A stretch of 64,000 nt of DNA from Streptomyces sp. NBC_00414 (GTDB lineage Bacteria; Actinomycetota; Actinomycetes; Streptomycetales; Streptomycetaceae), in assembly GCF_036038375.1 (NCBI RefSeq), contig NZ_CP107935.1, forward strand, positions 9,362,001-9,426,000, written 5' to 3'. Under the pieces are notes generated by a model. That model ran no database searches and was not told where the DNA came from. It saw nothing but the letters and a program-made list of their open reading frames with translations. Positions 8,447-51,050 of the stretch are shown here, piece after piece (position 1 is the first letter of the stretch; every line of letters starts with the position of its first letter). Both the position numbers and the translations under genes were made by a program.

Positions 8447-8495
8447 GCTGCGGGTCCGTCGTGGCCGGTCGCGCGGTTCCCCGCGCCCCTGGCGG
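8447..8495. repeat. Dispersed Streptomyces intergenic repeat
   Basis: The stretch contains GGCTGCGGGTCCGTCGTGG followed by CCGGTCGCGCGGTTCCCCGC and GCCCCT. It includes a short hairpin GCGCGG-TTC-CCCGCGC. This string, with small variations, is one I recognise as widely scattered in Streptomyces intergenic DNA. It fills much of the 165-nt space between the hydratase and DUF35 genes. Function unknown; it may act as an RNA-stability hairpin or be a non-autonomous repeat. Confidence 0.5.
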
Positions 8496-48979: not shown

Positions 48980-49052
48980 CCGCCTGGCCCCAGGGGCGCG
49001 CGGCCGCCGAAACTCCGTTGCCCGATCGGTCCGCGGATGCTGGAGTGGCCGG

Positions 49053-49832
49053 ATGGATCACGAAGCGGTACTGGCACTGTTCGACCGGGACATGCGTGAG
49101 GGCGCGCGCCCCTTCGGCCCCGACTCCGTGGTGGAGCGCGTCGGCGGGGTGGTCCGGCACGTGGGTTCCGAGCAGGGCTGGAACGGGGTGCTCTGGTCGG
49201 ACCTCACGGAGTCCGACGCGGACGCGGCGATCGCCGAACAGACCCGCCATTTCGCGGGGCTCGGCCGCGAGTTCGAGTGGAAGCTGTACGGGCACGACCG
49301 GCCGCACGATCTGGGGCAGCGCCTGCTGGCCGCCGGGTTCACCCCTGAGCCGGCCGAGACCTTGATGATCATCGAGGCCGCCGAGCTGGATCTCGACGCC
49401 GAACCACCGGCGGGTGTCGAGCTGCGGCCCGTCACCGACGCCGCCGGCGTCGACCTCGTGGTCGACGTCCACGAACAGGCCTTCGGCACGTCCGGCGCCG
49501 GGCTGCGCCACCAGCTGCTCGCCCAGCTCGACGACGCCCCGGACACCGTGGTCGTGATCGTGGCCCTCGCCGACGGCGTCCCGGTGAGCTCGGCCCGGAT
49601 GGAACTCATCCCCGGCACCCGGTTCGCGGGCCTGTGGGGCGGCGGCACGGTCGAGGCCTGGCGGGGCCGCGGCATCTACCGCGCGATGGTCGCCCACCGG
49701 GCCCGTATCGCCGTCGACCGCGGCTACCCCTACCTCCAGGTCGACGCCTCCGACCAGAGCCGCCCCATTCTCCAGCGCCTGGGTTTCGCCCCGCTCACCA
49801 CGACCGTCCCGTACGTCCACCCGGCGCCGTAA
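49053..49832 (+). CDS. GNAT acetyltransferase
   Basis: 259 residues from ATG 49053. The N-terminal half is a helical/GNAT-like domain (MDHEAVLALFDRDMREGARP), and the C-terminal GNAT domain from about 120 has VELRPVTDAAGVDLVVDVHE, GGGTVEAWRGRGIYRAMVAH with the acetyl-CoA loop WRGRGIY near 205, and YLQVDASDQSRPILQRLGF. The acceptor is unknown. The start lies 73 nt after ogt in the same direction; co-transcription is possible. Confidence 0.83.
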   Translation: MDHEAVLALFDRDMREGARPFGPDSVVERVGGVVRHVGSEQGWNGVLWSDLTESDADAAIAEQTRHFAGLGREFEWKLYGHDRPHDLGQRLLAAGFTPEPAETLMIIEAAELDLDAEPPAGVELRPVTDAAGVDLVVDVHEQAFGTSGAGLRHQLLAQLDDAPDTVVVIVALADGVPVSSARMELIPGTRFAGLWGGGTVEAWRGRGIYRAMVAHRARIAVDRGYPYLQVDASDQSRPILQRLGFAPLTTTVPYVHPAP

Positions 49833-49861
49833 CCCGAGCTGCCGCCCGAGCTTCGCTGAAA

Positions 49862-49935
49862 CAGGACGTCTCCGGCACGGCCGAACGCGAACTGCGGGGA
49901 AACCCGCAGACGCCGGCCATGACGGAGACGTCCTG
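49862..49935. other. Nested double hairpin between convergent genes
   Basis: Outer stem: CAGGACGTCTCCG (49862-49874) pairs exactly with CGGAGACGTCCTG (49923-49935). Inner stem-loop: CTGCGGG-GAAA-CCCGCAG (49892-49909), 7 bp with a GNRA-type tetraloop. A CGGC/GCCG helix lies between them. It starts 29 nt after the GNAT stop and ends 50 nt before the stop of the minus-strand gene. Either an elaborate bidirectional terminator or a structured RNA. Confidence 0.7.
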
Positions 49936-49985
49936 CAAGAACTCTTCACAGGCTGCCGCGCCGAACGCGCCGCGAACCGCTCTCG

Positions 49986-50252
49986 TCAGCGGCGGCCCGC
50001 CTTCGACCTGTCCAGCGCCGCGACACCGAGCGCCGCGAGACCGATCTGGATCAGCCACTCGATCCAGTCCACCCCGTCGGTGTCGCCCACGTCGAACGCG
50101 TTCGCGAGCACCGACCCGATGAGTGCGGCCACGATGCCCACCGCGATCGTCCACAGAATGCCGATGCGCTGACGGCCCGGAACCACGAGCCGGCCCAGCA
50201 CACCGATGACAATGCCGATCACGATGGCACTGATGATGCCCGAGATCTCCAT
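49986..50252 (-). CDS. GlsB/YeaQ/YmgE family small membrane protein
   Basis: 88 residues; ATG 50252 preceded by GAGGGG. Three hydrophobic helices: GIISAIVIGIVIGVLGRLVV, ILWTIAVGIVAALIGSVLAN and WIEWLIQIGLAALGVAALD, with the family glycine pattern and the conserved arginine after helix 1 (VVPGRQRIGI). Called transglycosylase-associated by convention; members are often stress-induced. No enzymatic motif. In Streptomyces such genes tend to be general-stress genes. Confidence 0.85.
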   Translation of the reverse strand: MEISGIISAIVIGIVIGVLGRLVVPGRQRIGILWTIAVGIVAALIGSVLANAFDVGDTDGVDWIEWLIQIGLAALGVAALDRSKAGRR

Positions 50253-50374
50253 CTCAGCCCCTCTTCGTCGTACTCCTTACGCATAGGAGTGCCCCCCGAA
50301 GCCGAGTGCAGTCCGAGTGGTTCTCAACTCACAGGCAGCCGCTCCCGCGACTCACCGGTTGCCGTTCCTCCGCC

Positions 50375-50920
50375 TCAGCGGCCGGTGTGCGGGACCCAGC
50401 CCGTGACCGCCAGTACGTCGCGCGCGATGTCGATCACCTCGCGGTCGTCGGTGACCACGCGCACGGTGTCGGCGGGCACGCGTTCCTCCAGCAGCCGCGC
50501 CTTGTTCGCGCTGCCCCGCAGCTCCTGTTCCAGCTCCGAGCCGATCTCGCGGCCCTTGAGGCGCTTGGCCGCGGTGGCGTCGGTCGCGGTGAGAAGCACC
50601 CGTACGAGTCGCACGTCCTCGCCGATCGCCCGTTCGAACATGCCCGCCGCCTCGGCCAGCACGCTCACGGTGTTCGTGTAGACGAGGCGCCGGTGGCCCA
50701 GCTCGGCGAAGTTCCCCCACACCGCCGACAGATTGCGCTCGGTGATGAGGGCCCGGTGCGGGTCGTCCTCCGGCGCCGGATGCACCTGCCCCATGAAGTC
50801 GCCCTCGATGACGGCGTGCGCGACCGCGGCCCTGCGCAGCCGTGCCGACACCTCCCAGCCGACCGTCGACTTTCCGACGCCGGCCCGTCCGCCGATGAGC
50901 AGCACCTCCGTGAGTCCCAT
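50375..50920 (-). CDS. P-loop nucleotide kinase-like protein
   Basis: 181 residues from ATG 50920. Walker A GGRAGVGKSTVG at residues 10-21, then VIEGDFMGQVHPAPE (Asp in the lid/substrate position), LVYTNTVSVLAEAA and LVRVLLTATDATAAKRLKGR, and a C-terminal VRVVTDDREVIDIARDVLAV. It resembles small adenylylsulfate/gluconate-type kinases and AAA_33 proteins. Likely phosphorylates a small molecule; which one is unknown. No gene partner. Confidence 0.78.
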   Translation of the reverse strand: MGLTEVLLIGGRAGVGKSTVGWEVSARLRRAAVAHAVIEGDFMGQVHPAPEDDPHRALITERNLSAVWGNFAELGHRRLVYTNTVSVLAEAAGMFERAIGEDVRLVRVLLTATDATAAKRLKGREIGSELEQELRGSANKARLLEERVPADTVRVVTDDREVIDIARDVLAVTGWVPHTGR

Positions 50921-51050
50921 GTGAGCAGCCTGCCAGGCACAGCCCGGACCGCGCGATCGAGAGGGGCCCCGAAGAGTTAGAGCCCGCGCGGACACGGGCC
51001 CCTCGTGCGGACGCCCTCGTGCGGACGCAGGCCTTCGCGGACGCGGGCTC

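Follow-up and report, generated by a model that had tools for sequence, protein, structure and literature searches.

Hairpins enclosing a promoter are known from phage T4, in which a gene has its own promoter inside a hairpin, and the hairpin silences the transcripts that reach this gene by read-through. Other hairpins, located past the stop codons of genes, occur at the transcript ends of Streptomyces. According to PMC12207403, PMC8269248 and PMC8914203, the terminators of Streptomyces are U-poor (3-4 U in 10 nt) and possess the longest and most stable hairpins, and some of the 3' ends are possibly I-shaped or Rho-dependent transcript ends. In PMC8269248, the HS-U-rich ends are defined by an energy of at most -23 kcal/mol over the 40 nt preceding the end and by at least 3 U among the 8 nt that follow the stem; this threshold of 3 U in 8 was applied in S. 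clavuligerus. The role of such U-poor hairpins in GC-rich bacteria is debated.

The hairpin dealt with here occurs at positions 49862-49935 of a 64,000-nt stretch of DNA (hereafter the window) from the 10.35-Mb single-contig chromosome of Streptomyces sp. NBC_00414. It is probably a low-U 3'-end or terminator hairpin of a glsB-like gene, and appears to derive from another gene, designated geneX, of which it was the promoter, leader and start region. In other relatives, geneX is a two-domain acetyltransferase gene which separates the GNAT and glsB-like genes that are direct neighbours in the window; its protein matches Pfam GNAT in two stretches, and the gene lies downstream of the glsB-like gene and is transcribed in the same direction. 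The features of the locus are the following:

49053..49832, forward strand: GNAT acetyltransferase gene (Pfam PF00583, E 1.3e-5), stop codon 29 nt ahead of the hairpin
49859..49861, reverse strand: short TTT read from the sequence, directly past the stem in the glsB direction
49862..49935, reverse strand: whole nested hairpin, read the way the glsB-like gene is transcribed
49862-49874 / 49923-49935, forward-strand fold: outer helix, 13 bp without mismatch
49862..49874, reverse strand: 3' arm of the outer helix, aligning with the Shine-Dalgarno sequence and start codon of the relatives' geneX
49923..49935, reverse strand: 5' arm of the outer helix, aligned to the relatives' geneX promoter at the last part of the -35 box and at the -35/-10 spacer
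Between outer and inner helix, forward-strand fold: middle helices of 2 bp, 5 bp and 3 bp
49892..49909, reverse strand: inner 7-bp helix (49892-49898 / 49903-49909), present in the folds of both strands
49899-49902: loop of the inner helix, GAAA on the forward and TTTC on the reverse strand
49910..49915, reverse strand: changed -10 box CGGCGT (TAGCGT, TAGCTT, TAGGTT or TTGGCT in relatives with geneX)
49933..49938, reverse strand: retained -35-like hexamer TTGCAG, from sequence and alignment (TCACAG in S. tauricus)
49986..50252, reverse strand: 88-aa YmgE/GlsB-like gene (NCBIfam PRK10457, E 1.4e-8), stop codon 50 nt ahead of the hairpin

The fold put forward in the first-pass annotation, a 13-bp outer helix, a short middle helix and a 7-bp inner helix closed by GAAA, is recovered at exactly the same coordinates and between the convergent genes that it had recognized. 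Its description as perfectly paired is overstated, since 60 of the 74 nt are paired and 14 are not. The forward strand folds at -55.9 kcal/mol (z -10.25) and the reverse strand more strongly, at -59.5 kcal/mol (z -10.9), with none of 200 shuffles equally stable in either case; a chance hairpin is ruled out by these shuffles and by the genome-wide rank of the z-score. Concerning the gene located upstream on the reverse strand, the PRK10457 match of its 88-aa product stays far under the curated cut-off (35 vs 129 bits) and a Pfam search at 0.001 gave no match; we take the gene, by name, to be GlsB/YeaQ/YmgE.

Raw folding energy discriminates poorly in this GC-rich DNA, in which the energy of the hairpin is ordinary (182 coding hairpins of the genome sample reach -55 kcal/mol), and z-scores were therefore used. 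The sample consisted of 20 fragments of 20 kb plus the window, amounting to 464 kb with 372 genes called by codon usage, and yielded a list of 1416 local, single-loop hairpins on the forward strand with a span of at most 100 and an energy of -35 kcal/mol or lower, each compared with 40 dinucleotide shuffles. By its z-score, the hairpin ranks 5th out of these 1416. Hairpins with a z of -5 or lower occur at 0.91/kb in convergent junctions (9 in 9.9 kb), compared to 0.20/kb in divergent intergenic DNA (4 in 20.0 kb), 0.18/kb in tandem intergenic DNA (8 in 43.7 kb) and 0.06/kb in coding DNA (21 in 375 kb), with 3 more at fragment edges. Taking together its rank and the density peak at convergent junctions, the hairpin therefore represents an extreme case of a class associated with convergent gene ends. 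In this respect, the statement that normal terminators of this DNA are single stems is only partly true, as very long hairpins are also present at further convergent junctions of the genome.

Past the stem, the reverse strand reads UUUCAGCG, which contains 3 U in 8 (S. tauricus has 2) and whose U-run, a mere UUU, speaks against a terminator, and the forward strand CAAGAACT, which is assigned to the U-lack class because it contains only 1 U in 8. With regard to the HS-U-rich definition, the reverse strand displays the 3 U and an energy of -59.5 kcal/mol, which applies to the whole stem and not to a 40-nt window before a mapped end. No canonical intrinsic terminator, i.e., a GC-rich stem followed by at least 5 T in 8, occurs in 49000-51000. 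The hairpin resembles the published HS-U-rich and HS-U-lack ends and I-shaped terminators as a very stable GC-rich structure located past stop codons, with few Us and a short loop; it differs from them in being longer and nested (74 nt), in its promoter/leader origin, and in being known here from sequence alone. Convergent genes and a stem folding on both strands, which together form the structural criterion of a bidirectional terminator, are both found at this locus. With the bidirectional transcript ends presented in PMC8269248, the hairpin shares the convergent genes and the near-symmetrical stem on both strands, whereas it has no A-tract/U-tract pair beyond a one-sided AAA/TTT. The hairpin would be mainly transcribed in the reverse direction, from the glsB-like gene, whose transcription it presumably terminates. 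Since the stem forms on both strands, the forward transcript of the acetyltransferase gene is probably ended by the same hairpin, which would thus work in both directions.

The origin of the hairpin was approached through the related loci. At E 0.001, the GNAT protein (49053-49832) has a match in 163 of 199 genomes sampled within the genus; out of 195 related loci, the analysis retained 80, all from Streptomyces except one from Wenjunlia and one from an actinobacterium. A similarity search with the hairpin DNA itself matches 2 of 100 genomes, its own included. In S. tauricus (L035), a homologous hairpin of 73 nt is located 3' of the glsB-like gene; its outer 13 bp are identical to those of the window, and its inner stem shows a compensated change from U-A to C-G. 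In the relatives possessing geneX, the hairpin aligns to the promoter and leader of this gene, including the Shine-Dalgarno sequence and start codon: a -35 box TTGCAG, an 18-nt spacer and a -10 box TAGCGT, followed by GGAGAC and a start codon that is either TTG or GTG. A direct DNA match of 33 nt (91%, E 2.3e-5) connects the hairpin of the window with the geneX leader of L006/L100. Judging from their sequence and conservation, these boxes presumably form a working promoter. geneX is absent from the genome of the window (best match E 3.2e-6), where, besides the -35-like hexamer, part of the Shine-Dalgarno sequence is retained (GGAG, 49870-49873, reverse strand), and CTG occupies the place of the start codon (49862-49864, reverse strand) instead of the TTG/GTG of the relatives. 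S. tauricus similarly displays CGGCGC at the place of the -10 box and CTG at the start, and has also lost the -35 box. Folding energies reach -62.0 and -61.1 kcal/mol in the window and S. tauricus, both without geneX, vs -40.5 to -52.5 kcal/mol in six homologues with geneX. A hairpin probably already overlapped the geneX promoter, downstream of the glsB-like gene, in the ancestral state, and geneX loss would have been followed by decay of the -10 box and start codon and by lengthening of the stem. The locus would then offer a traceable case of how a long Streptomyces terminator possibly originates, from the pre-paired promoter and ribosome-binding site of a neighbour, freed by gene loss. S. 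aurantiacus (L005/L036) possesses an internally shortened geneX, with an N run across it, and another hairpin just past glsB. Between the GNAT stop codon and the hairpin of S. tauricus (L035:3780-4084), tandem degenerate copies of the right-arm motif are observed, namely GGCGGAGACGTCC, AGGCGGAGACCTCC and AGGCGTAGACGTCC.

All eight homologues that were folded (the window, S. tauricus and the six with geneX) form long stem-loops of stacked helices. The GNRA loop, to which the first-pass annotation attached some significance, is not conserved: in the forward sense, the loop is AAG in L035 and L038, and the 6-nt GGGAAA in L144. The pairing itself is kept across genomes with compensatory changes, as the same annotation had proposed to check. 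Nine aligned sequences were compared over 15 named pairs with 500 shuffles; the set was chosen for aligning arms (L100 and L197 were dropped as near-duplicates, L041 and S. aurantiacus as divergent), the same nine sequences also served to draw the structure, and phylogeny is not fully corrected. The covariation score amounts to 0.244 vs 0.159 in the shuffles, the paired cells to 93.3% vs 88.5, and the cells with a two-sided change to 6 vs 1.8, each value being reached by 0 of 500 shuffles; four of these six cells are contributed by L071 and L198, which look alike. Slid registers score 0.026-0.100. Two measures are weaker, i.e., the pairs with a two-sided change (4, reached by 23 of 500 shuffles) and the further pair types (9, reached by 170 of 500). 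Covariation is thus recoverable for a U-poor hairpin. On the reverse strand, G-U cells outnumber C-A cells (8 vs 5, four of the C-A cells occurring at the weakest end pair), which constitutes a slight RNA-strand signal.

The extent of this pairing among the geneX leaders was assessed on 36 distinct leaders with a callable promoter (including L086, whose promoter is mis-called), out of 45 gathered with glsB upstream. Pairing between the -35/-10 spacer and the 5'UTR of the same leader averages -25.6 kcal/mol, vs -21.5 kcal/mol with the UTRs of other species (Wilcoxon p 2.7e-4, n=36), the own-species pairing being the better one in 26 of the 36. The difference persists when the leaders are thinned to 24 (p 0.006) or deprived of the aligned clade (28 leaders, p 0.018), these lists being the author's own choice by likeness, on rounded values and with phylogeny not fully corrected. 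Strong pairing, at -25 or lower, occurs in 20 of the 36 leaders with glsB upstream vs none of the 4 callable ones without it (p 0.015), a small control drawn from 13 geneX copies with a somewhat wider caller and including one promoter of different appearance (L201). A stem serving geneX itself would be expected in every geneX leader, with or without glsB. That strong promoter-overlapping pairing is missing in 16 of the 36 counts against the terminator of promoter/leader origin. Among promoters of the window's genome, the 6 that were callable, too few to generalise, show a spacer-to-leader pairing of -15.5 to -6.6, none reaching -25. Long stems occur at the geneX promoter despite quite different sequences, e.g., in L108, L199 and L075. 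In geneX leaders such as those of L108, L199 and L049, long palindromes are centred on or lie beside a TAGCTT/TAGCGT -10 box, so that promoter and hairpin share bases. Leader pairing is inversely correlated with the presence of a strong hairpin upstream, between glsB and the -35 box (rho -0.38, p 0.025), over 35 leaders, L194 not being placeable and four leaders with at most 25 nt upstream receiving a placeholder value, and similarly over the 31 leaders whose upstream stretch could be measured (rho -0.40, p 0.025). The stem thus seems to fade where another hairpin occurs upstream, which is a hint rather than a proof because p rises to 0.17 once each look-alike group is reduced to a single leader (24, again selected by likeness and on rounded values) and is 0.22 when the trade-off is expressed as a 2x2 table (1/9 vs 8/22). 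In the direct gaps of 40-480 nt between GNAT and glsB genes (n=28, including the window and S. tauricus), the best hairpin reaches a z of -2 or lower in only 7, which also counts against the proposed terminator, and at most 10 of 200 shuffles are as stable in 9.

A more tentative proposal concerns what the hairpin does in the species that still possess geneX, where a fast-evolving hairpin with conserved pairing would extend from the -35 box of geneX to its start codon. It is possible, with considerable doubt, that this hairpin silences read-through from glsB while sparing the transcript of geneX, and became a convergent terminator upon geneX loss. Read-through RNA coming from the glsB-like gene would be terminated or left untranslatable, whereas the own transcript of geneX, begun inside the stem and devoid of the 5' arm, would be free; loss of geneX would then convert the promoter-embedded hairpin into the convergent terminator encountered in the window and S. 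tauricus. In the predicted folds of L038, L144, L039, L148, L145 and L071, the stem spans the stretch between the -35 box and the start codon, so that the start site would be hidden in read-through RNA alone. These six predicted folds resemble the phage T4-type hairpin, from which the geneX hairpin differs by its chromosomal location, its putative silencing and, in the window, the disappearance of the gene. The right arm covers the Shine-Dalgarno sequence and reaches the start codon in six species, and the long stem stops before the Shine-Dalgarno sequence in six others (L108, L199, L075, L049, L078, L107), although in L108, L075 and L107 it is included when a wider local stretch is folded; hiding of the start site is thus possible, and not clearly a common denominator. 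If this ancestral arrangement is true, terminator and promoter occupy the same bases and the proposal can therefore be tested by mutation of a single arm. A literature search on terminator-promoter overlap returned nothing relevant, and the arrangement is not claimed as unreported.

Other explanations have to be weighed against a terminator of promoter/leader origin. The hairpin might merely protect a 3' end, transcription ending further on, by Rho or by collision, with exonucleases trimming the RNA back to the stem. We regard this as rather unlikely; PMC8269248 and PMC8914203 consider that structured U-poor 3' ends may be Rho-dependent transcript ends, PMC3765725 describes convergent transcript overlap as common in Streptomyces, and the present tests give no point against such protection and do not separate it from intrinsic termination. 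The palindrome could also be a DNA operator for a geneX regulator, kept after the loss of the gene, and the relatives' arms, which cover the -35/-10 spacer and the Shine-Dalgarno sequence and enclose the -10 box, would suit such a function. However, across species the sequence changes and the pairing stays, the distance between the -35 box and the start codon is variable (about 80-116 nt), and the excess of G-U cells slightly favours the RNA strand, which leaves the operator little probability.

An independent small RNA, some 70-90 nt long, would account for an isolated, stable stem-loop with covariation, and was suggested in the first-pass annotation along with a stable 3' end. The compensatory changes and the location are in keeping with a structured RNA or 3' end, whereas a small RNA is very improbable: in the 64-kb window, no Rfam match lies above the gathering threshold (two microRNA models reach 18.9 and 23.6 bits vs a cut-off of 100), neither a consensus promoter nor a T-run was found in 49000-51000, and in the relatives the homologous DNA serves a protein gene as promoter and leader. 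As for a mobile palindromic repeat of the REP or MITE-like type, which the abundance of hairpin repeats of other sequence in this genome could bring to mind, its probability is close to nil. A single place in the whole genome matches the hairpin, the 13-nt arm having three exact occurrences of which two are within the hairpin, and the absence of dispersed copies already refutes the repeat element that had been named as an alternative; moreover, the alignment places the arms on a promoter and leader resident at the locus, and no target-site duplication was seen by eye around the hairpin.

Two hairpin families of other sequence are dispersed in this genome. The 17-mer GCGCAGTTCCCCGCGCC occurs 388 times (reversed control 0), in many cases as facing pairs, with examples at convergent gene ends (L125:18960-19046 and L129:4115-4213). 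Similarly, GTCCGGCGTTTGAGGAC occurs 110 times (reversed control 0), with many facing pairs tens of bp apart, e.g., at L119:16008-16097 and L128:17763-17861. The core 15-mers of both families were not found printed in the literature searched. The window itself contains one single-mismatch copy of GCGCAGTTCCCCGCG, at 8471-8485.
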